NCBI RefSeq assembly: GCF_030012215.1
Contig: NZ_JASCXX010000013.1
Span: 1 to 64,000, forward strand
DNA: 64,000 nucleotides
Reading direction: 5' to 3'
Source: Anaerobaca lacustris
GTDB lineage: Bacteria > Planctomycetota > Phycisphaerae > Sedimentisphaerales > Anaerobacaceae
How positions within the stretch are numbered: position 1 is the first letter of the stretch; every line of letters begins with the position of its first letter. The translations under genes and the position numbers were made by a program. The notes below the pieces were generated by a model, which did no database searches, was not told where the DNA came from, and saw nothing but the letters and a program-made list of their open reading frames with translations. Shown here piece by piece: positions 44,935-61,087 of the stretch.

Positions 44935-45762
44935 CTACAGCATGTCCATGGTGCCTTTGTAGAAGGCGACGTCGAGCGTCATGACCATTGCGCCGCGCGT
45001 CTTGTCGAGGTCGCCGGTGATCGACTCGATCCCGCGGACGATCCTGGCCTCATCCTGTTCCGGAATGAGCGTCAGGATGGTATGACTGATCTTCACGTCC
45101 TCGCGCATGAACCCCAGAAAGCTGGCGAACAGCGGCAGGTTCGAGATGTAGGCGCCCATGCCCTCGGAGCGGAGGATCGTTGCGCCGTCGACGTTCACGT
45201 CGATCAGATACTCCAGCACGTCGTTGAGCAGTTGATCGTAGTACAGCACGATCAGCAGCAGACGGCGCTTCTGCCGGTCGCCCTGGGCCGGGGCGGCCTC
45301 TCCGCTGAGATGGCGGACCAGCACCTCATAGAGAATCTCGGGCGTGCGGGTCTTGAGCGCCTCTTTGCGGAACGTGGTCTGGCTCAGCATTCGCGCCAAT
45401 CCCGCCAGCACCTTGAGGTGTTCGGCGACCTTGTCGGACGGGGCCAGCACGACGAAGAAGATCTGCACCCGCCGACGGTCGATGGCGTCGTACTCCACGC
45501 CGTCGGGGGCCAGCAGCACGAGGATGACGAAGTCCTTGAGGGCGTCCAGCCGGGCGTGCGGAATCGCCACGCCGTGTCCGATCCCCGTCGAGACCGCCGC
45601 CTCGCGCTCGGCCAACAACTGGTGGATCTGCTCTTCGGAGACCCCTTTGAGCGGCGGCGATTTGGCGGCCAGAGCGGCGATCTTCGTCAGGGCCTGCGCC
45701 TTGTTGCGCGCCCGGAAGTCGACGCGAATATGGTCTGTGTGGATGTAATCGGCGATGTTCAT
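44935..45762 (-). CDS. PTS IIA domain fused to a PII/CutA-like C-terminal domain
   Basis: A 275-residue protein. Residues 1-150 are a fructose-type IIA domain with phosphohistidine H69 in GHGVAIPHARLD and GVEYDAIDRRRVQIFFVVLAP. Residues about 165-275 form a second domain (KRRLLLIVLYYDQLLNDVLEYLID...GATILRSEGMG), which looks like the ferredoxin-like fold of PII and CutA proteins. Its start overlaps the stop of the CPA2 antiporter by four bases (ATGA at 45762-45759). The IIA domain may be phosphorylated by the EI-HPr relay at 5.4-7.5 kb and control the antiporter. This link is inferred. Confidence 0.8.
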   Translation of the reverse strand: MNIADYIHTDHIRVDFRARNKAQALTKIAALAAKSPPLKGVSEEQIHQLLAEREAAVSTGIGHGVAIPHARLDALKDFVILVLLAPDGVEYDAIDRRRVQIFFVVLAPSDKVAEHLKVLAGLARMLSQTTFRKEALKTRTPEILYEVLVRHLSGEAAPAQGDRQKRRLLLIVLYYDQLLNDVLEYLIDVNVDGATILRSEGMGAYISNLPLFASFLGFMREDVKISHTILTLIPEQDEARIVRGIESITGDLDKTRGAMVMTLDVAFYKGTMDML

Positions 45763-47033
45763 TCCGCCTCCATTTCGTTGCCCCGCAGAATGGCGTGACG
45801 CAGCAGGAACGGCGACGCTATTTCATTGACGAAGATCGATGCCAGGACGATGTTGACCATTTCGGGGAACACCCCATAGAGCGGGTCGCCCTCGATCAAT
45901 CCCGTAGCCAGCGGCGACGACTGGATCAGCAGGACGAAGCCCAGTGCGATGCCGCCCTGGGAGAACATGCACAACCCGAGGTTGCGGCGAATCGGCGGCG
46001 CCAGGCCGCAGGCCAACGTGCCGGCGTAGGTGCCTGCGTATTTGCCCGCCGCACGCACAACGATATAGAACAGGCCCGCGATCAGCACGGTCCGCTGGAG
46101 GAAGATTCCAGGGTTCATCTCGATGCCGGCGATGACGAAGAACAACGCATAGATGGGCGGCGTCAGCGGCTCGATCTGGCGGAACAGGCGATGGTTCCCG
46201 CTGGACAGGTTGATCAGGACCGCGCCCATCACCATGTTCGCCAGCAGCGGCGAAAGGTGCAGCACGATGGCGAAGCCGGTCATGATGAACAGCACGCCGA
46301 TCGTGGCGATCAGGTGTTCGCCTGGGTTCTGAATGCGCCGGGACAGCAGGTGCAGGACCAGGCCGCCGATCGCCCCGGCCACGACCGACAGAGCGATCTC
46401 CCGCAGTGATGAGATCAGCGTGTACGACGCGGCAACCTGTACGTTAAGGATGTTGATCACGACCGTGAAGGCCAGGCCGAAGACCACGACCGCCACCGCA
46501 TCGCCCAGCGCCACGACGCCGAAGAGGTAGTCCACGAACCGCCCATGCGCCCGCAGGTGATGGATCTCGGCGATGATCACGGCCGGCGCCGTGGCGCAGG
46601 CCATCACCGCCAGCAGAATGGCATACGGATATCCGACCGGCAGTTCCGGGAAGACCCGGCTCAGGGCCAGGCAACTGACCAGCACCACCAGGAAGGTCAC
46701 GAGCAGCCCAATAAACGTGATCCGCACCACGTTGCGTCCGATCCGGCGCATCTTGCGGACCGAGAACTCGGCCCCGACGCTCAGCGCCAACAGCCCGATG
46801 GCCGTCTCCGTCACGATGTTCAGCGATGCCGTCAGTTCATGCGTGACCAGGCCGGTCGTGAAGGAGTTGACAATCAGGCCGGCGAAGATGAAGCCGGAGA
46901 TCTCCGGCATGGTCAGCCGACGGAACAGCTTGCCGAGAAAGTAGCCGATGATCAGAAGAATGCCCACCAGGAACAACGGGTGTTCCATGAAGAGCGTCTT
47001 CAGCTCCTGCCAGTATGATCCGTCCAACCACAT
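45759..47033 (-). CDS. CPA2-family cation:proton antiporter (Kef/NapA-like)
   Basis: A protein of 424 residues from ATG 47033, chosen because the promoter box at 47042-47047 lies inside the longer open frame; ATG 46988 is an alternative. It has about twelve hydrophobic segments. LTMPEISGFIFAGLIV and LSVGAEFSVRKMRR are typical CPA2 entries; ATAPAVIIAEIHH and ALGDAVAVVVFG carry the acidic and polar residues of the transport site. The C-terminal RCK/TrkA domain of KefB/KefC is absent, so regulation may come from the overlapping IIA-PII-like protein. It exchanges potassium or sodium for protons. Confidence 0.88.
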   Translation of the reverse strand: MWLDGSYWQELKTLFMEHPLFLVGILLIIGYFLGKLFRRLTMPEISGFIFAGLIVNSFTTGLVTHELTASLNIVTETAIGLLALSVGAEFSVRKMRRIGRNVVRITFIGLLVTFLVVLVSCLALSRVFPELPVGYPYAILLAVMACATAPAVIIAEIHHLRAHGRFVDYLFGVVALGDAVAVVVFGLAFTVVINILNVQVAASYTLISSLREIALSVVAGAIGGLVLHLLSRRIQNPGEHLIATIGVLFIMTGFAIVLHLSPLLANMVMGAVLINLSSGNHRLFRQIEPLTPPIYALFFVIAGIEMNPGIFLQRTVLIAGLFYIVVRAAGKYAGTYAGTLACGLAPPIRRNLGLCMFSQGGIALGFVLLIQSSPLATGLIEGDPLYGVFPEMVNIVLASIFVNEIASPFLLRHAILRGNEMEAE

Positions 47034-47041
47034 GGGGTGCC

Positions 47042-47070
47042 AATCTACGCGCCGCACCCCGAAAAGTCAA
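47042..47070 (-). promoter_or_regulatory. Promoter of the antiporter-IIA operon
   Basis: On the minus strand TTGACT (47070-47065) and TAGATT (47047-47042) are exactly 17 bp apart. Transcription would start near 47035, almost at the ATG at 47033. Confidence 0.55.
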
Positions 47071-47213: not shown

Positions 47214-49547
47214 ATGAAGACAACACGATGGATGCTTGGGGCGGCGCTGGTCGCGTCGCTGGTTGCAGGGAATCTGTGTCGGGCCGAGACGCTGCCGACG
47301 GGCCCGGCGCGGGCGGCGATTCCGCTGCGGCACTTTCCGGATCGGCTGCACGCCTTCGTCTGGCGAAATTGGGAGTTGCTTTCGCTCGAACGGATGGGTG
47401 AGGTGCTCCAGACGTCGCCTGCGAACGTCCGTGACATCGGGCTGTCGATGGGCCTGCCCGCCCACGTACGCCCGCCGGCTGAGTACCAGCAGCGGGGCTA
47501 CATCTCGATCATCCGGCGGAACTGGCACCTGTTGCCCTACGAGCAACTGCTGACGCTGCTCGGCTGGGACGCGGAGCGGCTGGCCTTCACGCTGCGAGAG
47601 GACGATTTTCTGTGGATCAAGCTGGGCTCGCTGAAGCCGACGTGTGCGGCGATCCGCTACGCTGAGCCAAACGAGGCGACGGAGAGGCGATGCGCCGAGA
47701 TTCGGCAGATCGTCTCGTCGCATTTCGGTGAGGCACTCACGGCACCGTCAAAACCAAGGTTCGAGTTCTTCACTGAGACGGGTCCCTCGGCGGGCGCGGA
47801 AACCGGCCGGCGCGCGAGCCGGGGCGGCGAAGAACCCATCCGCTTCTTGTATTCGTATGCAGGACTCTTCGGCGACCCGCTGCTCCATCCGGAGCTGGAC
47901 CCGTATCCCGACGTGTTGCTGCGTCGGCTCTCGCAATCCGGCGTCAACGGCGTCTGGCTGCACGTCGTGCTCTCGCAACTGGCCCCGAGCGATGCGCTCG
48001 GCCGGCCCACGGTCGATCATGACGTGCGCTTGGCCAATCTGGCGAAGATGGTCGAGCGGGCCGCCCGTCACGGCATCGCCATTTACCTCTACATGAACGA
48101 GCCTCGCGCCGTCCCGGCGTCGCTGCTGGAGGGCAGGGACGACCTGCGGGGCGTTCGGCAGGGGGACCACGTCGTGCTGTGCACGTCCGCTCCGCGGGTG
48201 CGGGGGTGGATCACGGATTCGCTGCGACATGTGTTCTCGCGTGTTGGCGGTCTGGGCGGCGTCTTCACGATCACTGCGTCGGAGAACCTGACCAACTGCT
48301 ACAGCCACACCCGCACGGCCGCCGGGTGTCCGCGATGTTCGAAGCGTTCGGGCCCCGAGGTCATTGCAGAGGTCAACGCGGCCATTGCCGCCGGCGTTCG
48401 CGAGGGCGACCCGAAGGCCAAGGTGATCGTCTGGGACTGGGGCTGGCCCGACGGCACGCCTGCCGGATGGGGCCAGCCGGACTGGGCCTCGCGAATCATA
48501 GAACTGCTGCCCGACGACGTCTATCTGATGTGCGTAAGCGAGTGGGGCAAACCCATCACGCGAGGCGGCGTCGCCGGTGCGGTCGGTGAGTATTCCATCT
48601 CGGCCGTCGGCCCCGGACCCCGGGCGCAGAGGCACTGGGCGCTGGCTCGAAAGCGAGGGCTCAAGACGCTCGCCAAAGTACAGGTCAATTGCACGTGGGA
48701 ACTGTCGGCGGTGCCGTATCTGCCCGTGATGAATCTCGTCGCGCAGCACTGCCGCAACCTGAGCGAGGCGGGTATCGACGGCCTGATGCTGAGCTGGACG
48801 GTGGGCGGGTATCCGTCGCCGAACCTCGAACTGGTCCGGCGGTTCCAGCAGCAGCCTGCGCCGACGGTGGAGCAGGCACTGAGCGAAGTGGCCGAGGCGC
48901 GGTACGGCAGCGGCGCCGCTTCGGAGATGATGGCGGGCTGGTCGAAGTTCAGCGACGCCTTTTCGGAGTTCCCGTTCGACGGCAGCTACGTCTATCGCGG
49001 TCCCAGCCAGGTCGGTCCGTCCAACCTGCTCTATCTTGAGCCGACCGGATACCCCTCGACGATGGTCGGTTTCCCGTACGATGACGTGGACGGCTGGCGG
49101 GGGATCTATCCGGCCGACGTGCTCGCCGGGCAATTCGAGAAGATCGCCTCCGGCTGGCAGGAGGGGCTGGCGATCTGGACCAGGACGCTGGACAAGATCG
49201 ACGGGCCGCAGCAGCGCGCTAACGCAAGCAGCGATCTGATCGTCGCCGAGGCGGCGGGCCTGCACTTCGAGAGCGTGGCCAACCAGATCCGCTTCATTCT
49301 GGCCCGCAACGCACTGCGCTCCGGCTCGCTGAATCGGGCCGAGCGCGATGCGGCGGTCAGCACGATGCGGGCGAGGGCACATGCCGAGATCGAGAACGCC
49401 AAACGCCTCTTCACCCTGACGCGCCAGGACCCTCGAATCGGATTCGAGGCCTCGAATCATTATTACTACCTGCCGCTCGATTTGGTAGAGAAGGCCGTCA
49501 ACTGCGAGTATGTCCTTGCGGAGCTGGCCCACCGAAGGCTCGATTGA
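47214..49547 (+). CDS. Exported conserved protein, TIM-barrel glycosidase-like
   Basis: A 777-residue protein with a signal peptide (cleavage near SLVAGNLCRAE). The first 150 residues hold two repeats beginning FVWRNWELLS and IIRRNWHLLP that look like helix-turn-helix or lid elements, with LSMGLP between them. The rest fits a TIM barrel: GVNGVWLHVVL, RHGIAIYLYMNEPRA, GVFTITASENLTNCY, KVIVWDWGWPDG and GIDGLMLSWTVGGYPSPN. An N-terminal catalytic acid may be the E in ITASENL. I recognise the family as conserved in planctomycetes and others but it has no assigned activity. It heads a pectin cluster; GH20-like or GH123-like glycosidase activity is a guess. Confidence 0.7.
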   Translation: MKTTRWMLGAALVASLVAGNLCRAETLPTGPARAAIPLRHFPDRLHAFVWRNWELLSLERMGEVLQTSPANVRDIGLSMGLPAHVRPPAEYQQRGYISIIRRNWHLLPYEQLLTLLGWDAERLAFTLREDDFLWIKLGSLKPTCAAIRYAEPNEATERRCAEIRQIVSSHFGEALTAPSKPRFEFFTETGPSAGAETGRRASRGGEEPIRFLYSYAGLFGDPLLHPELDPYPDVLLRRLSQSGVNGVWLHVVLSQLAPSDALGRPTVDHDVRLANLAKMVERAARHGIAIYLYMNEPRAVPASLLEGRDDLRGVRQGDHVVLCTSAPRVRGWITDSLRHVFSRVGGLGGVFTITASENLTNCYSHTRTAAGCPRCSKRSGPEVIAEVNAAIAAGVREGDPKAKVIVWDWGWPDGTPAGWGQPDWASRIIELLPDDVYLMCVSEWGKPITRGGVAGAVGEYSISAVGPGPRAQRHWALARKRGLKTLAKVQVNCTWELSAVPYLPVMNLVAQHCRNLSEAGIDGLMLSWTVGGYPSPNLELVRRFQQQPAPTVEQALSEVAEARYGSGAASEMMAGWSKFSDAFSEFPFDGSYVYRGPSQVGPSNLLYLEPTGYPSTMVGFPYDDVDGWRGIYPADVLAGQFEKIASGWQEGLAIWTRTLDKIDGPQQRANASSDLIVAEAAGLHFESVANQIRFILARNALRSGSLNRAERDAAVSTMRARAHAEIENAKRLFTLTRQDPRIGFEASNHYYYLPLDLVEKAVNCEYVLAELAHRRLD

Positions 49548-49602: not shown

Positions 49603-49642
49603 CGTTGCGTGATGCCGTAGATCGTGCGTCCGCGCACGAGAT

Positions 49643-49662
49643 GGCGAGCGGGGACGCTCGCC
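49643..49662 (+). repeat. Leader hairpin before the GH95 gene
   Basis: GGCGAGCG and CGCTCGCC form a perfect eight-base stem with a GGGA loop. It lies within the predicted leader, about 50 bases before the ATG. The sequence resembles common GC-rich dispersed hairpins. Confidence 0.6.
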
Positions 49663-49712
49663 CTACGCGGTCGGCGCGATCGGGCAATGGCAAGATGTAT
49701 TGGGAGGTGAAC

Positions 49713-52712
49713 ATGCAGTCACGCAGAAGATGGTTCTCCACGGGGTGGGTCGCAATCGCTGTCGCTTTGCTTCTGGTGGGGCCGACTGGGGCGGCTGGGT
49801 CGGACGGAATGCGGCTGGACGGCAAGTCGCCGATCTATGAGGCACAGAGCCAGAGGGCGCTGGACCTGACGGACGAAGTGACGCTGGAGGCGTGGGTGCG
49901 GGCCGACCGGATGGGGCAGAGCGGCGGACGCATCCTCGACAAGTCCATGCCCGGCACCTCCGATGGGTATATGCTCGACACGTTCCCCGGCAATTCGCTG
50001 CGGTTCGTCAACGCCAAGGGCAGTTGCACGTACGACGCCAAGCTGCCGGCGGACCGCTGGTCGCACGTGGCCGGCGTGTACAGCGCGTCGAAGAAGATCA
50101 TGAAGCTCTACCTGAACGGCCAAGAGGTTGCCAGCGCCGACGGCGGGGCGTTCGTCCCCATGACGACGACGGGGATACCGCTTCGGATCGGCTGCGACCC
50201 GCGCGGGGACAATCGTTTCGTCGGGCGGATTCAGCGTGCGGCGGTCTATCGGCGGGCGCTGAATGCCGACGAGATTGCGTCGCGGGCGAATCAGGCGGAA
50301 CCAGCGTCACTGAGAGGCGTCGTCGGGGAATGGGTCTTCGCCGCGGAGCCAGGACGCAAAATCGAACCGGTGGCAGGCAGACTGGCCCTGGAGGTCGAGG
50401 GACTCAACAGCAGCACGAGGTTCTGGGGCACGATCGCCGGGCAGGTCTCGGCGCCGAAGGAGCCGCTGAGCTTGTGGTACCGTCAGCCTGCGGTCGAGTG
50501 GGTCGAGGCGTTGGCGGTCGGGAACGGTCGGCTGGGGGCGATGGTCTTCGGCGGGATCGACCGCGAACGCATCCAGCTCAACGAGGACACGCTGTGGGCG
50601 GGCGGACCGTACGATCCGACCCGCCCGGAGGCGTTGGAGGCGCTGCCCGAGGCCCGGCGTCTGATCTTCGCGGGCAAGTACCGCGAGGCCGATGCCCTCA
50701 TCGGCAAGCAGATGATGTCGAAGCCGCTGGGGCAGATGCCGTATCAGGTCGTGGGCGATTTGCTTCTGGCGTTTCCGAGCGTCGAGAAGGTGACGGACTA
50801 TCGCCGGGACCTCAATCTCGACGAGGCCGTGGCGAGCGTGACCTATACGGTCGATGACGTGACGTTCAAGCGCGAGGTTTTCTCTAGCCCCGTGGACCAG
50901 GTGATCGTCGTTCGCATTACCGCGAGCAAGCCCGGCCGAGTCTCGTTCACCGCCGGGATGAAGACGCCGCAGCGGGCCACGATCGAGACGGAGAACTCCG
51001 ATACGCTCGTGATGCGTGGCGTCAACGGCGCATCACAAGGCATCGACGGCGCGCTGAAGTTCCAGTCACGCGTCCGCGTTCTAGCCTCCGGCGGGACCAC
51101 CAAATCGGAAGGGGATCGCCTCACCGTGACCAACGCGGATTCGGCGACGCTGCTCGTGGCCGCGGCCACCAGCTACAAGAGCTTCAAAGACGTCAGCGGC
51201 GATCCCGAGACACCGGCCAAGGCCGCCATTACAGCCGCGAGCGCCAAATCGTTCGACACCTTACGGGCCGACCACGTGGCCGAACACAGACGGCTCTTCC
51301 GTCGCGTCAGTCTGGACCTCGGTGTCACCGAGGTCGCGAGTCTGCCGACCGACGAGCGCATCCGGAATTCCATGACGAACCACGATCCGCAACTGGCGGC
51401 GCTCTATTTCCAGTTCGGACGGTATCTGCTGATCTCCAGTTCGCGGCCCGGCACGCAGCCGGCCAACCTTCAGGGCATCTGGAACGACAGCATGAGTCCG
51501 CCATGGAGCAGCAAGTACACGATCAACATCAATACGGAGATGAACTATTGGCCCGCCGAGCCGACCGCTCTGAGCGAGTGTGTCGAGCCCTTGGTGGCGA
51601 TGGTGATGGACCTGACCGAGACGGGCGCGCGGACCGCCCGCGTCAACTGGGGCGCCAGCGGCTGGGTCTGCCACCACAACACCGACCTGTGGCGGGCTTC
51701 GGGCCCGATCGACGGGCCGTTCTGGGGCTTCTGGCCGACCGGCGGGGCGTGGCTGTGCAAGCACCTCTGGGAGCACTACGAGTACGGCGGCGACCAGGCG
51801 TTCCTTGCGAAGGTCTATCCTGCGCTGAAGGGCGCGAGCCAGTTTTTCCTCGATACGCTCGTGGAAGAGCCGACGCACAAGTGGCTGGTGACGTGTCCGT
51901 CCATCTCGCCTGAGAATGGGCACAAGTACGGCGTCTCGGTTTGTGCCGGGCCGACGATGGACAACCAGATCCTTCGCGATTTGTTCGCGAGCTGCATCCA
52001 TGCCGCCACGATTCTGGGTGTGGATGAGGCGTTCCGCGGCAAGCTGGAAGCGACGCGGGCACGGCTGGCCCCGGACCAGATCGGCAAGGAGGGCCAACTC
52101 CAGGAATGGCTGGAAGACTGGGACATGGAGGCGGGCGACATCCATCACCGCCACGTCTCGCATCTGTACGGCCTGCATCCCAGCGACCAGATCAACGTAC
52201 ACGACACGCCGGAACTGGCGGCCGCCGTCCGCCGTTCGCTGGAGATTCGCGGCGATAACGCCACTGGCTGGGGCATCGGCTGGCGGATCAATCTCTGGGC
52301 GAGGCTCCAGGACGCCGAGCACACCTTTCAAATTCTCAAGCTGCTGCTCGGGCCCGAGCGGACCTATCCGAACATGTTCGACGCCCACCCGCCGTTCCAG
52401 ATCGACGGCAACTTCGGCGGCGCCAGCGGCATTGCCGAGATGCTCTTGCAGACCCGCGTGCGTTTCTCCGGCCCGGCGATGACGGCTGAGATCGAGCTGC
52501 TGCCCGCGCTGCCCAAGGCCTTTGCCACCGGCTCCGTCCGGGGTCTGCGCGCCAAGGGCGGGTTCGACGTGGACATCGAATGGGCCGACGGCAAGCTCGT
52601 TGCCGCGACGATCCGGTCGCGACTGGGCAGCGCGTGCCGCCTGCGCTATGGCGATGTGGTCCGTGAGGTGCGGATTGAGAAGGGCGGGACCTTCCGCTGG
52701 GATGGGCGTTGA
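49713..52712 (+). CDS. GH95 family alpha-L-fucosidase/galactosidase with N-terminal LamG domain
   Basis: A protein of 999 residues from ATG 49713, with GGGAGGTG five bases upstream. A signal peptide (about 1-30) is followed by a LamG/concanavalin-like domain (LTDEVTLEAWVRADR...DKLPADRWSHVAGVYS), then the GH95 catalytic module: EALAVGNGRLGAMVFGG, RIQLNEDTLWAGGPYDP, LQGIWNDSMSPPW, ININTEMNYWPAEP (the two asparagines of the active site), HRHVSHLYGLHPSDQI and RGDNATGWGIGWRINLW. GH95 members release alpha-1,2-L-fucose or, in some, L-galactose from plant and host glycans. Rhamnogalacturonan-II and xyloglucan side chains are plausible here. Confidence 0.93.
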   Translation: MQSRRRWFSTGWVAIAVALLLVGPTGAAGSDGMRLDGKSPIYEAQSQRALDLTDEVTLEAWVRADRMGQSGGRILDKSMPGTSDGYMLDTFPGNSLRFVNAKGSCTYDAKLPADRWSHVAGVYSASKKIMKLYLNGQEVASADGGAFVPMTTTGIPLRIGCDPRGDNRFVGRIQRAAVYRRALNADEIASRANQAEPASLRGVVGEWVFAAEPGRKIEPVAGRLALEVEGLNSSTRFWGTIAGQVSAPKEPLSLWYRQPAVEWVEALAVGNGRLGAMVFGGIDRERIQLNEDTLWAGGPYDPTRPEALEALPEARRLIFAGKYREADALIGKQMMSKPLGQMPYQVVGDLLLAFPSVEKVTDYRRDLNLDEAVASVTYTVDDVTFKREVFSSPVDQVIVVRITASKPGRVSFTAGMKTPQRATIETENSDTLVMRGVNGASQGIDGALKFQSRVRVLASGGTTKSEGDRLTVTNADSATLLVAAATSYKSFKDVSGDPETPAKAAITAASAKSFDTLRADHVAEHRRLFRRVSLDLGVTEVASLPTDERIRNSMTNHDPQLAALYFQFGRYLLISSSRPGTQPANLQGIWNDSMSPPWSSKYTININTEMNYWPAEPTALSECVEPLVAMVMDLTETGARTARVNWGASGWVCHHNTDLWRASGPIDGPFWGFWPTGGAWLCKHLWEHYEYGGDQAFLAKVYPALKGASQFFLDTLVEEPTHKWLVTCPSISPENGHKYGVSVCAGPTMDNQILRDLFASCIHAATILGVDEAFRGKLEATRARLAPDQIGKEGQLQEWLEDWDMEAGDIHHRHVSHLYGLHPSDQINVHDTPELAAAVRRSLEIRGDNATGWGIGWRINLWARLQDAEHTFQILKLLLGPERTYPNMFDAHPPFQIDGNFGGASGIAEMLLQTRVRFSGPAMTAEIELLPALPKAFATGSVRGLRAKGGFDVDIEWADGKLVAATIRSRLGSACRLRYGDVVREVRIEKGGTFRWDGR

Positions 52713-52728
52713 GACGGAAAGACAGGCG

Positions 52729-53733
52729 ATGAAAGACGCGAAGATGCATGTGCTGCTTGGCGTTGCGGTGTTCGTCGGCGCCTCGTTCTGCAGCGCTGCC
52801 GAGCAGGAGATGCTCCGGCTCAGCGGCGATACCGCGCTGCACGATCCGGTCATCATCAAAGAGGGCGATACGTATTACGTATTCGCCACCGGCGGCCGGC
52901 GGGGACAGAACTGCGTGCCGATCCATACCTCGACGGACTTGCGACACTGGACCAGGATCGGCTACGTGTTCGAGGAACTGCCCGAATGGGCGCCGAAGGA
53001 GATCCCGGGCACGCGAGGGACCTGGGCGCCGGACATCTCGTTCTTCAACGGCACGTATCACCTGTACTACTCCGTCTCAACCTTTGGCAAGAACAGCTCC
53101 GCCATCGGTCTGGCGGTCAACGAGACGCTCGATCCGAACAGCCCGAAGTACAAGTGGGTCGATCGGGGCATGGTCGTCCGCTCGACCGAGGGCGCCGACG
53201 ACTGGAACGCCATCGACGGCAATATCGCGATCGAGGACAACGGACGCGTCTGGCTGAACTGGGGCAGCTTCTGGGGCGGGATCAAGATGAGGCGGATCGA
53301 CCCCGCGACGGGCATGCTCTCGGCCGAAGACACGAAGCTGTATTCGCTGGCCCGCCGGCCCCGGTCGGTCGACGGCGCGGTGGAGGCCCCGTTTCTCATC
53401 CGTCGTGACGGCGACTGGTATCTGTTCGTTTCGTTCGACTTCTGCTGTCGCGGCGCCAAGAGCACGTACAACGTGCGTGTCGGCCGCTCGCGCGACATCA
53501 CCGGTCCTTACGTGGACAGGGACGGCACGCCCATGATGGAAGGGGGCGGGACGTTGGTCATCGAGGCCACGGAGGGGGCTTGGCGCGGCGCCGGCCACCA
53601 AGCGGTGTTGCAGGAAGGCGGCATCGATTACCTCGTGTTCCACGCCTACGACGCGACGACCGGGCGCAGCCACCTGCAGATCTCGACGATGGTGTGGGAA
53701 GACGGCTGGCCGCGGGTGGGGTCTTTGCCCTGA
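52729..53733 (+). CDS. GH43 family arabinan-degrading enzyme (endo-arabinanase-like)
   Basis: A 334-residue protein from ATG 52729 with signal peptide (LLGVAVFVGASFCSAAEQ). The five-bladed propeller has catalytic aspartate in LHDPVIIKEGDTYYVF, the pKa-modulating aspartate in WNAIDGNIAIED and the general acid in VDGAVEAPFLIRRDG. GTRGTWAPDISFFNGTYHLYYS is a typical GH43 blade of the arabinan endo-1,5-alpha-L-arabinosidase type. It would cut arabinan side chains of pectin. It starts 16 bp after the GH95 stop. Confidence 0.92.
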   Translation: MKDAKMHVLLGVAVFVGASFCSAAEQEMLRLSGDTALHDPVIIKEGDTYYVFATGGRRGQNCVPIHTSTDLRHWTRIGYVFEELPEWAPKEIPGTRGTWAPDISFFNGTYHLYYSVSTFGKNSSAIGLAVNETLDPNSPKYKWVDRGMVVRSTEGADDWNAIDGNIAIEDNGRVWLNWGSFWGGIKMRRIDPATGMLSAEDTKLYSLARRPRSVDGAVEAPFLIRRDGDWYLFVSFDFCCRGAKSTYNVRVGRSRDITGPYVDRDGTPMMEGGGTLVIEATEGAWRGAGHQAVLQEGGIDYLVFHAYDATTGRSHLQISTMVWEDGWPRVGSLP

Positions 53734-53758
53734 TGGAGTCGGCAAATCGGAGGCAGCC

Positions 53759-55093
53759 ATGAAGGTGATCGCTGCAATCAGTGTGTTCTTCGCGATATCG
53801 TTTGGCAACGTCGCTCTTTCGTTGGAGCGGCTGGATCGCGGCGTTGTCGCTGTGGCCACGTCCGAAGGCCACGTCTATGTCGGCTGGCGTCTGCTGGCCT
53901 CGGACCCGCCCGACGTTGGCTTCGACGTGCTGCGATCCATCGAGGCCGAGGGCACATACGAACGACTGAACGACATGCCCATCACGGACTCGTGCAACTT
54001 CGTTGACACCAGCGCCAACGGCAAGCGATGGTACTACGCTGTGGAGGCCCAGGGCGGTGAAGGGACGGAGCGATCCGGCGCCGTCAAGGCAGAGGCGGAG
54101 GGATATCTGCCGATCCCTCTGCAGGGCAACTACGGCGCGAACAAGGTAGCGATCGCCGATCTCGATGGCGACGGCGTATACGACTACATCATCAAGCAGC
54201 CGGCGTGGTCGCTCGATCCGGGGCGGCAACGTCGCAGTCCGGATACCTACAAGATCGAGGCTTACAACGGCAAGACGGGCCGGTTCATGTGGCGTCACGA
54301 TCTCGGATGGAACATCAATCTGGGCATCTGGTTTTCGCCGATGGTGGTCTACGACTTCGACGGCGACGGCAAGGACGAGGTGATCATCGGCTCGGCGGCC
54401 ATCGACCACGACGGCACGTGTCTGTGGCGGATGGACATGGGACATCCCGACTGGTTCTACCTCGCCGATATCGACCCGGCCCGTCCGGGGTTGGAGATCG
54501 CGTATGGCTTCGAGACGGCCCAACCCCGCAACGGCATCTGCCTGGTCGATCCACGTACGGGGCAGATCCTCTGGGGCTGCGACCATCCCACCACGCACAT
54601 CCACGACTGGGGCATGGTGGCCGACATCGACCCGGACAGCCCCGGTATGGAGATCTACGGGATGGAACGGGACGGCGTGACGTGCTGGCTCTACAGCGCC
54701 CAAGGCAAGCTGCTGGCACACAACGAGGACCTCGGCCGGCACGGCCCGCGAGCGTTCTACTGGCTCGACGGCCCGACGAAGGTCCGCGTGCCATTCAGCT
54801 ATCGCGGCGGCACGTTCGGGATTCTGCAATACAAGGGCCCGCAGGTGGGCGAGATTCAGGGCCAGCCCATCGCCATCGCCGATGTGCTCGGCGACTGGCG
54901 CGAAGAGGTCATCACCGTCACCGATGGTGTCATCCGCATCTACACGACCACCGTCCCGGCCACGACCCGCCGGGTCTGTCTGATGCAGGACCACCTGTAC
55001 CGCATGGACGTGGCGATGCAGGCGATGGGTTATTTCTATCCACCCCAGCTCGGCGGCCGGCTTCTGAAGTCGGCGACGAGCCGGGAGAATTGA
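53759..55093 (+). CDS. Short PL11-like rhamnogalacturonan lyase
   Basis: A 444-residue exported protein with signal peptide (VFFAISFGNVALS). It starts with the PL11 domain pattern LDRGVVAVATSEGHVYVGWRLLASDP and GTYERLND, then calcium-type loops DLDGDGVYDYIIK and DFDGDGKDEVIIG in a propeller, and ends with VTDGVIRIYTTTVPA and LMQDHLYRMDVAMQAMGYFYPP, both standard for PL11. Typical PL11 lyases have about 600 residues. The central region that normally carries the long GTVDG-containing loops is missing here; the frame jumps from GDGKDEV to HPDWFYLADIDPARPG. Lyase activity is therefore uncertain. Confidence 0.8.
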   Translation: MKVIAAISVFFAISFGNVALSLERLDRGVVAVATSEGHVYVGWRLLASDPPDVGFDVLRSIEAEGTYERLNDMPITDSCNFVDTSANGKRWYYAVEAQGGEGTERSGAVKAEAEGYLPIPLQGNYGANKVAIADLDGDGVYDYIIKQPAWSLDPGRQRRSPDTYKIEAYNGKTGRFMWRHDLGWNINLGIWFSPMVVYDFDGDGKDEVIIGSAAIDHDGTCLWRMDMGHPDWFYLADIDPARPGLEIAYGFETAQPRNGICLVDPRTGQILWGCDHPTTHIHDWGMVADIDPDSPGMEIYGMERDGVTCWLYSAQGKLLAHNEDLGRHGPRAFYWLDGPTKVRVPFSYRGGTFGILQYKGPQVGEIQGQPIAIADVLGDWREEVITVTDGVIRIYTTTVPATTRRVCLMQDHLYRMDVAMQAMGYFYPPQLGGRLLKSATSREN

Positions 55094-55106
55094 CAGGAGG
55101 ATGGGT

Positions 55107-58100
55107 GTGAGACCGGAAATGTCACGATATGCTCTTGTGGTGTTGGCGACGATCCTTCTGTCGACCCCGGTTGCGATGGCTTCCGACGCGATCGATCTGA
55201 GCGGGACGTGGGCGGTGGCGCTGGATCGCGACGACGTGGGGGTGGACGAAGAGTGGTTCGCGCAGGAGTTGTCCGATCCGATCCGCCTGCCGGGGGCGCT
55301 GCGTGACAGCGGCTACGGCGACGAGATCACGGCCGAGACGAAATGGATGAGCGGCCTGCACGATTCCTACTGGCACCTGCGAAAGGAATTCAAGAAGTAC
55401 GCCGAAGCCGGCAACCTCAAGGTCCCGTTCTGGCCCCAGCCGCAGCACAAGTACACCGGCGTGGCGTGGTACCAGAGGGACATCATGATCCCGGAGAGCT
55501 GGCAGGGCCGCCGGGCGGTGGTGTCGTTCGGGCGGGTCCACTGGTCGAGCGCCCTGTGGGTCAACGACCGGCTGATCGGCGTCAACGACAGCCTGGGAAC
55601 GCCTCACGTCTACGACCTTGGCATCCTGGAACCGGGGCGGTACACGTTGTCGGTTCGCGTCGACAATCGATACCTCGTCAACATCCGCAAGGACGCCCAC
55701 AGCATCACCGATTCGACGCAGACGAACTGGCATGGGTTGGTCGGCAACCTCACGCTGCGGTCGACGACGCCCGTGTGGATCGACGATGCACGAGTTTACA
55801 CCGACATCGACCGCAGATCCGCGCGCATCGAGGTGACGCTGGGCAACATTACCGGCGAGCCCGGCCGAGGGACGCTGTCGGCCGGCGGCAAGAGCTTGCC
55901 GGTGCAATGGGATATCGGCGGAGGCACGGCGCGACTGGAGGTGTCCTTCGGCGACGACGCCGCCCTGTGGGATGAGTTCGCCCCGACGCTGCACCACGTG
56001 ACGTTGAAGCTGAGCGGCGATCGGGCGGACGATGAACGTAAGCTGACCGTCGGGTTGCGTCGGATCGAGAGCCGCGACGGGGCGTTCTATATCAACGGAC
56101 GGAAGACCTTCTTTCGCGGCACGCACGAGGGCTGCACGTTTCCCCTGACGGGCTATCCGCCGACGGACGTCGAATCGTGGCGAGAGGTCTTCGAGGTCGT
56201 CAAGGACTACGGCCTGAACCACGTGCGATTCCATTCGTGGTGTCCGCCCAAGGCGGCGTTTACAGCGGCCGATGAGATGGGGATCTACTTGCAGCCGGAG
56301 TCGTCGAACTGGGGACAGTACTCATCGCGGGACGACGCGGTGAAGGAATTTCTCTATCGCGAGACCGAGCAGATCGTTCGCGCGTATGGCAATCATCCGT
56401 CGTTCGTGATGCTCTCCTCGGGCAACGAGCCGGCCGGACCCTGGCAGCAGGTTCTCACGCCCTGGCTGGTCGAGTGGAAGAAGAAGGACAACCGGCGCAT
56501 CTACACCACGCAGACCGGGCGATATTACGGCGAGCGACCCGGCCCGGTCGACCACATCGACTATCTCATCGCGATTCGTATCGGCTCGTATCGCTTCCGA
56601 GGCGAAAGCGGCTGGTTCGGTCGCGATTTTCGCGCTTCGCTCGAAGGCACCAACTATCCCGTGATTTCGCACGAGACCGGACAGTGGTGCGCCTATCCGG
56701 ACCTTTCGGAGATCGACCGATACACCGGCACGCTGAAGGCGAGGAACTACGAGATCGTTCGCGAATCGCTCGCCGAGCGCGGCATGCTGCACCAGGCGCG
56801 TGATTTCCTGATGGCCAGCGGCCGGTTTCAGGTGGCCTGTTACAAGCAGGAGATCGAGGGGCTGCTTCGCACGCCGGGCATGGGCGGGTTCCAGTTGCTC
56901 GACCTGCATGACTACCCCGGTCAGGGCACGGCGGTGGTCGGTCCGCTGAACGTGTTCTGGCAATCAAAAGGATATGTCACGCCCGAGGAGTTCCGACGGT
57001 TCTGCGACGTCACGGTGCCGCTGGCCCGGCTGAGTCGCTCGATCTATACGACCCAGGACGATCTGGACGTGGATTTGGAGATCGCGCACTTCGGCCCGGC
57101 GCCTCTGGAGGACGCTGTGCCGGTCTTTCGGATCGTCGACGCCGGGGGCAAGACGATCGTGTCCGGCGAGCTTGCGGCGATGACCGTGCCTCTGGGTACG
57201 GCGACACCGATCCAGCGGCTATCGATGAACCTGAGCACGTTCAGGGCCCCGCAGAGGTATCGTCTCGTGGTCGGCCTCAAAGGGATGGCGTCTGCCGAGA
57301 ACGATTGGGACTTCTGGGTCTATCCCGCCCGGCTGTCCGGCGAGACGCCGGCCGATGTGCTCGTGACGCATTCGTTCGCGCAGGCCCAGGGGAGGCTGGC
57401 CGCCGGAGGCAAGGTGCTGTTTCTTCCCCTGTACCACCAGTTGAGCTGGGACAGCCCGCCGGTGGGCCGTTTGCCGATCTTCTGGAATCGTCTGATGGGG
57501 CCCGCGTGGGAACGGTTTCTGGGCCTGCTGTGCGACCCGAATCATCCGGCGCTGGCCGAGTTCGCGACGGATTTGCACTACGACTGGCAGTGGCAGGACG
57601 TGACGCAGCCGGCGTGCCGGGCGATGAACCTGGACCGCCTGCCGCGCGATCTGCAACCGATCGTTCAGGTCATTGACGACTGGAACCGCAACTACAAACT
57701 CGGCCTGGTGTTCGAGTGCCGCGTGGGGCCGGGCAAGCTGATGGTCTGCTCGGCCGATCTGGCGTCCGGTCTCGATAAGCGGCCGGTCGCCCGCCAGTTG
57801 CGCCACAGCCTTTTGGCGTATATGTCGAGCGAGCGGTTCGATCCGGCCGTCGAGGTGTCGCCGGCCGCGATTCGCAGCGTTCTGTTCGACAATCAGGTGA
57901 TGAGTGGGCTTGGGGCCGTCGCCAGGGCCACCGCAGAGACGCCGGGCAACCCGGCGGCATATGCCATCGACGGCAATCCGAACACGTACTGGCTGGCCGG
58001 CGGCGGACGCGACCGACAGACGCGCCATCCGCAGGAACTGGTGATCGACTTCGCCGAGCCTGTGGCGATGAATGGGCTATTGTGTATGGCCCGACAGAAC

Positions 58101-58403
58101 CACCGGGCCCGGGAAGGGGACATCCGCGAGTTCGTCGTCGAGATCAGTGGCGACGGGGAGCAATGGGAGGAAGTGACACGCGGGGAGTTGGAATCGACGT
58201 TCGAGCCGCAGAAGATCGGGTTCGGAAGGATCGTTGAGGCAAGACATCTGAAATTGCGTACGCTGTCCGGCTTCGGGGATGACCTGGCGTGCTCTCTCGC
58301 CGAGCTGGCGGTCGTGCAGGAGACACTGCAGGACGGGGCCGCCGGAGAGACGGCGCCGTATCGCAGCGTGGAAACAGCCACCGAGGAGATCGAAAGTCCG
58401 TAG
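55107..58403 (+). CDS. GH2 family glycoside hydrolase with C-terminal F5/8 type C domain
   Basis: A protein of 1098 residues from GTG 55107, which has AGGAGG at the right distance; ATG 55101 lies too close to it. A signal peptide is followed by a GH2 sugar-binding domain (GVAWYQRDIMIPESWQGRRAVVSFGRVHWSSALWVN), an immunoglobulin-like domain and the TIM barrel. The acid/base is about E441 in LSSGNEP and the nucleophile about E523 in VISHETGQW. Residues about 940-1070 form an F5/8 type C (CBM32-like) domain (AYAIDGNPNTYWLAGG). Beta-galactosidase, beta-glucuronidase or beta-galacturonidase activity is possible; pectin context favours side-chain removal. Confidence 0.9.
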   Translation: MRPEMSRYALVVLATILLSTPVAMASDAIDLSGTWAVALDRDDVGVDEEWFAQELSDPIRLPGALRDSGYGDEITAETKWMSGLHDSYWHLRKEFKKYAEAGNLKVPFWPQPQHKYTGVAWYQRDIMIPESWQGRRAVVSFGRVHWSSALWVNDRLIGVNDSLGTPHVYDLGILEPGRYTLSVRVDNRYLVNIRKDAHSITDSTQTNWHGLVGNLTLRSTTPVWIDDARVYTDIDRRSARIEVTLGNITGEPGRGTLSAGGKSLPVQWDIGGGTARLEVSFGDDAALWDEFAPTLHHVTLKLSGDRADDERKLTVGLRRIESRDGAFYINGRKTFFRGTHEGCTFPLTGYPPTDVESWREVFEVVKDYGLNHVRFHSWCPPKAAFTAADEMGIYLQPESSNWGQYSSRDDAVKEFLYRETEQIVRAYGNHPSFVMLSSGNEPAGPWQQVLTPWLVEWKKKDNRRIYTTQTGRYYGERPGPVDHIDYLIAIRIGSYRFRGESGWFGRDFRASLEGTNYPVISHETGQWCAYPDLSEIDRYTGTLKARNYEIVRESLAERGMLHQARDFLMASGRFQVACYKQEIEGLLRTPGMGGFQLLDLHDYPGQGTAVVGPLNVFWQSKGYVTPEEFRRFCDVTVPLARLSRSIYTTQDDLDVDLEIAHFGPAPLEDAVPVFRIVDAGGKTIVSGELAAMTVPLGTATPIQRLSMNLSTFRAPQRYRLVVGLKGMASAENDWDFWVYPARLSGETPADVLVTHSFAQAQGRLAAGGKVLFLPLYHQLSWDSPPVGRLPIFWNRLMGPAWERFLGLLCDPNHPALAEFATDLHYDWQWQDVTQPACRAMNLDRLPRDLQPIVQVIDDWNRNYKLGLVFECRVGPGKLMVCSADLASGLDKRPVARQLRHSLLAYMSSERFDPAVEVSPAAIRSVLFDNQVMSGLGAVARATAETPGNPAAYAIDGNPNTYWLAGGGRDRQTRHPQELVIDFAEPVAMNGLLCMARQNHRAREGDIREFVVEISGDGEQWEEVTRGELESTFEPQKIGFGRIVEARHLKLRTLSGFGDDLACSLAELAVVQETLQDGAAGETAPYRSVETATEEIESP

Positions 58404-58412
58404 GAGGCAACA

Positions 58413-59471
58413 ATGGATAGAATGGGAGACATCTCGGGGGCGGCTGGGCGCTTGGCGGCCGCCGGGGTTCTGATATGGGGTTGTCTGTTGTCGGCGTTGG
58501 CTGCTGGTTCCTGGCGGAACTATCGCGACAAGCCGGACGAGTGGTATCGCAGCGAGGAGGGCAGACGCATTGCCGAGAACGTTCTGTCCTGGCAATCGCC
58601 GCAGGGCGGCTGGCCCAAGAACACCAGTACGATGTCCCAGGCCTTCTCCGGCTCGCCAGACGAGCTGAGAGGGACGTTCGACAACGGCGCGACGGTGGAC
58701 GAGCTGCGATTCCTGGGGCGAGCCTTTCGCGCGACGGGCGATCGACGCTGCGCGCAGGCGTTTCTCAAAGGGTTCGATCACATCCTCGAAGCGCAGTATC
58801 CCACCGGCGGTTGGCCCCAGTACTATCCGCCCGGCAGGGGGTACCCGCGACATGTCACGTTCAATGACAGCGCGATGATTCGCCTGATGATCTTCCTGCG
58901 CGAGGTCGCGACGTCGGATTATGAATTCGTCGATGCGGCGCGGCGCGAAGCGGCCCTGGGTGCCGTAGAGCGCGGCATCGAGTGCATCCTCCGGTGTCAG
59001 ATCATCGTCGACGGGAAGCGGACGGCCTGGTGCGCCCAGCACGATGAGGTCGATTACCGTCCGCGTCCGGCCCGCACCTACGAACTGGTCTCCCTCAGCG
59101 GCGGCGAGAGCGCCGGCATCCTTCGATTCCTCATGAGTCTGGACGATCCGAGTCGCGAGGTCGCCGAGGCTATCACTGCGGCCGTGGCGTGGTTCGAGTC
59201 GGTCAAGCTGACCGGCATCCGGCTGACCAGTGTCGATGGCGACCGGGCCATCGTCGAGGACGCCGATGCGCCGCCTCTGTGGGCCCGGTTCTACGAGATC
59301 GGGACGAACCGTCCGATTTTCTCCGGACGCGACGGGATCAAGAAGTACAGCATGGCCGAGATCGAGGCCGAACGCCGCAACGGATATGCCTGGTATGGCC
59401 GCTGGGGCCAATCGCTGGCGTCGGAATACGCCGAGTGGAGGACAAAGTGGCCGGCGCAGTCATCCAACTGA
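58413..59471 (+). CDS. PL10 family pectate lyase
   Basis: A 352-residue exported protein with signal segment ([15 protein letters not shown]). The (alpha/alpha) barrel pattern is plain: [65 protein letters not shown] and the C-terminal [19 protein letters not shown]-type ending. It cleaves polygalacturonate by beta-elimination with calcium. GGAGG precedes the ATG. It is the only backbone lyase of the canonical homogalacturonan type here. Confidence 0.92.
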
Positions 59472-59506
59472 CAGCACGCACACGACCTATCGAAGGAGAG
59501 ACCATC

Positions 59507-61087
59507 ATGAAGAGGCACGGATTGAAAACGTTGGTGTGTTTGATCGTTGCTGCGGCATTCTGCGTCGGAGCGCAAGCGGTGGTGACGGTGTCCTCGGAGC
59601 CGGGGACCGTTAATCGCCTGGTGGTCCACGCCGATCAGGGCGAAACCACGATCGCTCCGGAGATCTACGGGCATTTCGCCGAGCACCTGGGCCGCTGCGT
59701 CTACGAGGGGTTCTGGGTCGGCGAAGATTCGGAGATTCCCAATGTGCGCGGCATTCGCACGGACGTGGTCGAGGCCCTTAAGAAGCTCGATATCCCGGTG
59801 CTGCGCTGGCCCGGCGGATGCTTCGCGGACGAATACCACTGGATGGAGGGCATCGGCCCGCGCGACACACGGCCGGCGATGATCAATACGCACTGGGGCA
59901 TGGTCACGGAAACCAACGCCTTCGGCACGCACGAGTTTCTCGATCTGTGCGAGCAACTCGGCTGCGAGGCCTACGTGGCGGGCAACGTCGGCTCGGGCAC
60001 GGTCAAGGAGATGCAGGACTGGGTCGAGTACATGACGTTCGACGGGGACAGTGAGATGGCGAACCTTCGCCGGGCCAACGGCCGTGAGAAGCCCTGGCGG
60101 GTCAAGTACTTCGGCGTGGGCAACGAGAACTGGGGCTGCGGCGGCAACATGACCCCCGAGTTCTATGCCGACCTCTACCGGGTCTACCAGACCTACGTTC
60201 GCAGCTACTCGAACAACGCCATCGTGAAGATCGCCTGCGGTCCGAGCAGTGCGGACTACCACTGGCTGACCGTCGTGCTGGAACGAGCCGCCCGGTACAT
60301 GGACGCCATCAGCCTGCACCACTACGTTCGGGGTTCGGGCAACTGGACCGACAAGGGCAGCGCCACCGAGTTCGACGAAGGCGAATGGTTCGTCCTGATG
60401 AAGAACACCCTGACGATCTACGATCTGCTCGAAAAGAGCATCGAGATCATGGACCGATTCGATCGGCGCGGACGAATCGGGCTGTACGTCGATGAGTGGG
60501 GCACGTGGTGGGACGCCGAGCCGGGCACTAACCCGGCGTTCCTCTACCAGCAGAACACGATGCGCGACGCCGTCTCGGCGGGCATCTTCCTGAACGCGTT
60601 CAACGAGCATTGCCGTCGCGTTCGCATGGGCAATATCGCCCAGACCAACAACGTGCTCCAGGCGATGATCCTGACCGACGGGCCGAAGATGATCGTCACA
60701 CCGACGTACCACGTCTTCGAGATGTACAAGGTCCACCAGGGTGCGACGCATCTGCCGGCCGATCTGACGTGCCGCGCCTACAATCGCGGCGGCGAGGAGC
60801 TACCGTCTCTGGTGGCGTCGGCGTCGCGGGCCGCGTCGGGCCTGATCCACATCACGATCTGCAATCTCGATGCCCAGAAACCGGCCGAGTTCGTCTGTGA
60901 GATCAAAGGGGTCGAGATCAGCCGGGTTTCCGGAAGGGTCCTCACGGCCGAGACGATGAACGCGATGAATACGTTTGAGGCGCCCGACGCGGTGAAGCCG
61001 ACGGTCTTGAGCGGCGCATCGGTCCGGGATGGCGCGATCCGGGCGACGCTGCCCGCCAGGTCGGTGACGGTGCTGGCGGTCCGGTAG
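59507..61087 (+). CDS. abfA: GH51 alpha-L-arabinofuranosidase
   Basis: A 526-residue protein from ATG 59507, with GAAGGAGAG upstream. A signal peptide ([15 protein letters not shown]) is present, unlike many cytoplasmic GH51 enzymes. The TIM barrel has the acid/base in [15 protein letters not shown] and the nucleophile in [11 protein letters not shown], with [14 protein letters not shown] and SLHHYV in between. A C-terminal beta-sandwich follows. It releases terminal L-arabinofuranose from arabinan. It completes arabinan breakdown started by GH43. The open frame continues upstream into the PL10 gene but the signal peptide defines the start. Confidence 0.94.

Follow-up and report, generated by a model that had tools for sequence, protein, structure and literature searches.

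The window analysed here, a 64,000-nucleotide stretch of the Anaerobaca lacustris genome, encodes a 777-aa protein that is probably an exported glycosidase. It would belong to a new, unclassified family related to GH67 and use E357 as its general acid. A first-pass annotation had considered a new glycosidase activity plausible, and profile comparison, fold and invariant glutamates now point to a glycosidase of an undescribed family. What is new here is this unnamed family with its N-terminal 'RNW' domain; the type of system itself is not new.

Protein architecture and family distribution

The gene is present in a single copy in its own genome and its open reading frame is complete, with an ATG start codon preceded by GGAGG nine bases upstream. 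The hydrophobic N-terminus suggests a signal peptide and export of the protein, as judged by sequence, and the earlier description of a full-length, signal-bearing product stands. An AlphaFold2 (AF2) model built from 79 sequences (pLDDT 90.7; pTM 0.91) contains a TIM barrel followed by a helical C-terminal domain, and the barrel-like strands noted previously belong to this barrel, which is predicted at high confidence (AF2, Foldseek and VIA-align). Domain boundaries were set by us from the AF2 model:

47214..49547 (+): gene for the 777-aa protein (open reading frame; relatives; AF2 model, pLDDT 90.7)
47214..47285 (+): predicted signal peptide, residues 1–24 (hydrophobic N-terminus, pLDDT <50)
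47325..47771 (+): N-terminal RNW domain, residues 38–186 (AF2 of the domain alone)
47832..48860 (+): TIM barrel, residues 207–549 (AF2, VIA-align range, hhalign with GH67)
48861..49535 (+): mostly helical C-terminal domain, residues 550–774 (AF2 secondary structure)

The RNW domain is named for a tripeptide at residues 51–53 and 102–104. R51, N52, W53, N103 and W104 are kept in all 79 aligned sequences and R102 in 69 of them, so the repeats are not a chance occurrence; the first-pass annotation was right that they exist, but they lie in a separate N-terminal helical domain and not in the barrel. When modelled alone (pLDDT 90.9), the domain folds into a pair of three-helix units, and in both of them RNW ends the first helix. 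A search of 294 genomes from the phylum yielded it in six, always within a family member; it has no sequence match in the PDB and no Foldseek match at E≤0.001. Assignment as a known helix-turn-helix was rejected (best Foldseek E 0.7; best VIA-align Z 3.0), and the spliceosomal matches in VIA-align (Z 2.3–2.5) are too weak to use. A role in binding or assembly is a guess.

The N-terminus of the window protein is helical and has no GH67N or GH20b match in Pfam. One relative (L128 526–3252, +) has an RNW domain, a GH20b-like segment (matching PF02838 below cut-off, at E 0.0024) and the barrel, in that order, and is likely an intermediate architecture. Five N-terminal segments, from L128 and four remote relatives, were compared: PF02838 matches, below cut-off, occur in two (L128 and L092), and a genuine GH67 N-terminus used as a control matches at 2.3e-5. 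Aligned together, the five segments score 28.0 against the GH67 N-terminus with a probability of only 20.9; 30 shuffled controls do not exceed 14.6 and the reversed control scores 13.6. The RNW domain may have joined the protein ahead of a GH20b/GH67N-type domain that was later lost in most members.

A scan of genome contigs reveals 210 encoded relatives, the best 80 of which are 46–86% identical to the window protein. Judging from record titles, from which we made the counts, these best 80 of 210 cover six phyla, with 32 in the Planctomycetota, 15 in the Verrucomicrobiota (Kiritimatiellae included), 15 in the Hydrogenedentota, nine in the Bacteroidota, four in the Armatimonadota and one in the Omnitrophota, together with one labelled Desulfomonile. 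Within the window's own phylum, 10 of 294 sampled genomes contain a match, six with the N-terminal domain and four barrel-only or fragmentary. The plasmid collection yielded no relative.

The window protein matches no Pfam or NCBIfam model at E up to 1, and the four remote relatives (L089–L092), in which only the barrel and C-terminal part are in common, match no Pfam model at E<0.1; these five proteins were the scope of the Pfam scan for family membership, and the window protein that of the NCBIfam scan. The absence of an assigned GH family in the first-pass annotation is thus borne out for the window protein. No relative was found in the PDB, either by phmmer (a single match at E 0.22, taken as chance) or with a profile of 79 sequences (two matches, E 0.68 and 1.7). 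A search of titles and the beginnings of abstracts returned no description of the family, and we know of no activity for any of its members. One member (L025) occurs in a named strain, Bythopirellula polymerisocia Pla144, so the family is open to experiment.

Relation to GH67 and the putative active site

The clearest profile relatives of the family, at the level of sequence, are the GH67 alpha-glucuronidases (PF07488/PF03648). The GH67 alignment (A6) consists of 11 proteins, one from the phylum search and ten from plasmid records, and with hhalign the barrel portion of the family alignment A1 matches it with a probability of 94.9, an E-value of 4.5e-8 and a score of 63.4, against a score of 13.6 for the reversed control and at most 24.1 in 40 column shuffles. 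The match is also found with full-length A1 (E 7.7e-7), with the wider alignment A5 (E 1.3e-6) and with a 19-sequence alignment that includes six divergent sequences (E 1.6e-8). When single sequences are compared with A1, four of four GH67 proteins score 34.8–43.9 and none of the 12 comparison proteins from other families exceeds 31.6, one of these 12 (L112) perhaps having been read in the wrong frame. Against A5 this separation is lost (GH67 30.2–39.0; one GH89 30.7). As a separate observation, an antisense frame of GH67 genes (L101–L110) is matched between species by tblastn with E-values down to 3e-49.

The stretch alignable with GH67 is residues 229–360, corresponding to barrel strands 2–4, and in the hhalign result E357 coincides with the glutamate that ends the K-A-[N/D]-S-E motif of GH67 after strand 4, the catalytic acid in that family. 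The lysine of this motif is isoleucine here (I353, 79/79), and GH67 uronate recognition is therefore not kept as such; by eye, the positions of the GH67 'WRAF' arginine and 'VKNG' lysine are occupied by D408 and S442. In GH67 enzymes an Asp/Glu pair that follows strands 6 and 7 provides the base. In the present family strands 6–8 score 12.8 and 14.0 against the GH67 profile, with shuffles up to 17.6 and 19.2, and because these strands do not align the second catalytic residue is not fixed, E459 and E496 being candidates only. The changed lysine and the unaligned strands make the family a relative, and not a member, of GH67, from which the window protein also differs in having no Pfam match and in carrying the RNW domain in place of GH67N. 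The residues of interest are:

48180..48338 (+): C323, C362, C372 and C375, near E357 in sequence (79/79 and 20/20)
48282..48284 (+): putative general acid E357, which follows barrel strand 4 (conservation; hhalign to the GH67 glutamate)
48588..48590 (+): E459, following strand 6, which may act as the base or contact the substrate (E in 79/79)
48699..48701 (+): E496, following strand 7, which may act as the base or the nucleophile (79/79 and 20/20)

Six acidic residues near strand ends (E296, E357, D408, E443, E459 and E496) are invariant in the 79 sequences, in which mean column identity is 54%, as are R298, C323, I353, C362, C372, C375 and S442; R450 is kept in 78 and K488 in 75. In a 20-row alignment that includes the four remote relatives, the invariant positions are C323, I353, E357, C362, C372, C375, Y460, K488, E496 and W528. 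D408 is not kept in the remote relatives, and the counterpart of E459 is glutamate in L089 and aspartate in L090, L091 and L092. The four invariant cysteines may form a structural metal site or disulfides. In catalysis, E357 would protonate the glycosidic oxygen, while E459 or E496, after strands 6 and 7 respectively, would either activate water (in an inverting enzyme) or attack the sugar (in a retaining one), such that an end sugar would be released from a glycan outside the cytoplasm.

Fold comparison also brings up GH67, together with GH138, GH89 and GH115. The top-ranked Foldseek match in the PDB is the GH138 enzyme 6hze, which is active on RG-II (E 2.3e-12; TMq only 0.44; 12% identity), followed by 1gql, 4xwh, 2vcb and GH115 entries, with human NAGLU and a clostridial GH89 enzyme also among the top matches; 1gql is a GH67 alpha-glucuronidase. 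With VIA-align, the GH67 entry 1l8n is matched over both the barrel and the C-terminal domain (Z 17.3; rmsd 5.1; 395 aligned), and four GH67 matches extend to residue 702–723, within the C-terminal domain. The highest Z values belong to barrel-only matches, among them Cwp19 (19.4) and lacto-N-biosidase/GH20 chains, and unrelated TIM barrels score equally high (Z 16–19; beta-amylases, for example, about 17), so that the fold alone is not decisive.

For the other families the sequence comparisons gave weaker matches or none. GH138 6hze has no sequence relation to the family by phmmer (E≤1) or profile (E≤10). GH115 and GH67 have a common core fold, according to a published account (PMC3879575), and the profile of GH115 (PF15979 members; two sequences only) gives a probability of 1.5. 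Three GH89 sequences align with full-length A1 at a score of 38.8, a probability of 17.5 and an E-value of 0.0014, and single GH89 sequences score 23.0 and 31.6. The first-pass annotation had proposed comparison with GH20, GH123 and GH129. GH20 (PF00728, with domain 2 PF02838) resembles the family in the barrels of the GH20-type chains, but the window protein has no PF00728 match; GH20 membership was rejected, the genome's own GH20 protein (L111) scoring 23.1 against 19.1 when reversed and giving no alignment. GH20 is thus not the nearest family, GH67 being closest by profile, and GH138, GH67, GH89 and GH115 lead the Foldseek ranking. Neither GH123 nor GH129 has a Pfam match in the window protein. 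By the tests made, the protein is a member of neither GH67 nor GH20.

Genomic context

The 777-aa gene is the first in a run of genes on the plus strand, and the preceding gene is on the other strand. Six downstream neighbours have Pfam and NCBIfam assignments and together constitute an RG-I type set:

49605..61087 (+; span of all six listed open reading frames): co-directional GH95, GH43 (arabinanase-like) and PL11 (short) genes
49605..61087 (+; the same span): co-directional GH2 (beta-1,4-galactosidase-like), PL10 and GH51 genes

The PL11 gene (53759–55093, +) encodes 444 aa and is short, looking truncated in the propeller; the better of its two RGL11_C stretches spans residues 201–431 (profile positions 244–476). 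Upstream, a Na+/H+ exchanger-type transporter gene and a PTS EIIA-like open reading frame, the latter recognized by eye, are divergent to the cluster (44935–47057, −). The gene at 61122–63875 (−) encodes a 917-aa protein with a GH57 domain (residues 8–284) and a starch/glycogen-synthase-like part (residues 434–910).

The first-pass annotation placed the gene at the head of a pectin cluster, and while it does lead the run, a role in pectin breakdown finds little backing among the relatives. In tblastn searches of 80 loci with the window neighbours, GH95, GH43, GH2 and part of PL10 were found only in L002, whose homologue is 84% identical and which also has a GH106 gene upstream; PL11 has no match there. 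Any match at all to a window neighbour occurs in nine of the 80 loci, six of which (L005, L009, L047, L063, L070 and L071) have GH51, strongly in L009 and L063. In the closest relative (L001, 86% identical), for which 8 kb is available to either side, tblastn detects no gene of the cluster; the neighbours there include subtilase, C-N hydrolase and LexA genes. Locus lengths vary, which limits the coverage of this comparison, with 3 kb or more of sequence downstream in 58 of 80 loci and on both sides in 47. Because the cluster is kept in one of 80 loci, a pectin-dedicated function is not the default reading; plant-glycan neighbours (GH51, GH127 and rhamnosidases) do nonetheless recur.

Neighbour scans covered 259 of 270 picked open reading frames in three sets, and among the 25 commonest families per set no Pfam family occurs in more than 5/79, 3/94 or 4/86 neighbour proteins. 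Housekeeping genes (SecA, Lon, GatB and citrate synthase) appear beside genes for GH127, GH106, GH78-type, GH3, GH109 and GH20 proteins. No operon partner kept throughout the family was found, the largest neighbour cluster (sulfatase-like) being present in seven of 80 loci. The open reading frame picker was crude and kept false frames, such as two on the opposite strand over the L002 GH95 gene.

Two Bacteroidota loci have a common neighbourhood around the homologue (L042 2370–18248; L038 2309–18263), with genes for LacI, SDR, 3HCDH, M19, a GH109-type oxidoreductase, MFS, a weakly isomerase-like protein, PfkB, a class-III aminotransferase, a DeoC/LacD aldolase and a sulfatase; each family was scanned in one locus per gene and the rest assigned through shared clusters. 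This looks like an arrangement for the use of a released sugar. A sulfoquinovose pathway in L042 was considered and rejected, the isomerase-like protein scoring 48 bits where the cut-off is 700.

Alternative activities and implications

Two alternatives are narrower forms of the reading as a GH67-related glycosidase. An alpha-uronidase acting on pectin or a related plant glycan, removing GalA or GlcA from side chains in the manner of GH138 and leading the operon for that reason, is unlikely. It draws on the RG-II-active enzyme at the top of the Foldseek ranking, the GH67 profile relation, the co-directional RG-I type genes and the cluster with GH106 in L002, the GH51 matches in six more loci, a single GH127 in each of two neighbour sets and a GH78-type rhamnosidase in the A2 set; moreover, R298, R450 and K488 could hold a carboxylate, by which a uronate may still be bound. 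The cluster, however, is confined to one of 80 loci and missing from the nearest relative, and the three basic positions of GH67 noted above are I353, D408 and S442. Quite unlikely is a hexosaminidase-like enzyme that, in the manner of GH89 or GH20, would target amino sugars in glycans of bacterial or animal type: NAGLU and the clostridial GH89 rank high in Foldseek and GH109, GH3 and GH20 domain proteins are neighbours in some loci, but the GH89 profile is weak and no listed neighbour family rises above the low counts given above.

A non-hydrolytic exported protein, either a degenerate binding barrel or a transferase, would accord with the variable gene context and with our knowing of no assayed member, but the invariant acidic residues near strand ends form an active-site pattern, and we regard it as very improbable. 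The favoured interpretation remains a GH67-related glycosidase, exported and of a new family, with the housekeeping neighbours in several of the 80 loci counted against it as unusual for a dedicated catabolic enzyme. Since gene context differs between loci, the target linkage is expected in several glycans and would not be special to pectin. The more ambitious proposition, that this is a new GH family whose sugar or linkage specificity is new among GH67-related enzymes and that RNW, whose pair of three-helix units would lie outside the cytoplasm, is a new glycosidase accessory domain, is evenly balanced.

The family is a strongly conserved, exported one spread over the Planctomycetota, Verrucomicrobiota, Hydrogenedentota, Bacteroidota and Armatimonadota and, judging from the window member, without a Pfam or NCBIfam model. 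An assigned activity would close a gap in the understanding of these polysaccharide degraders and reveal how specificity shifts within the GH67/GH138/GH115/GH89 fold group.
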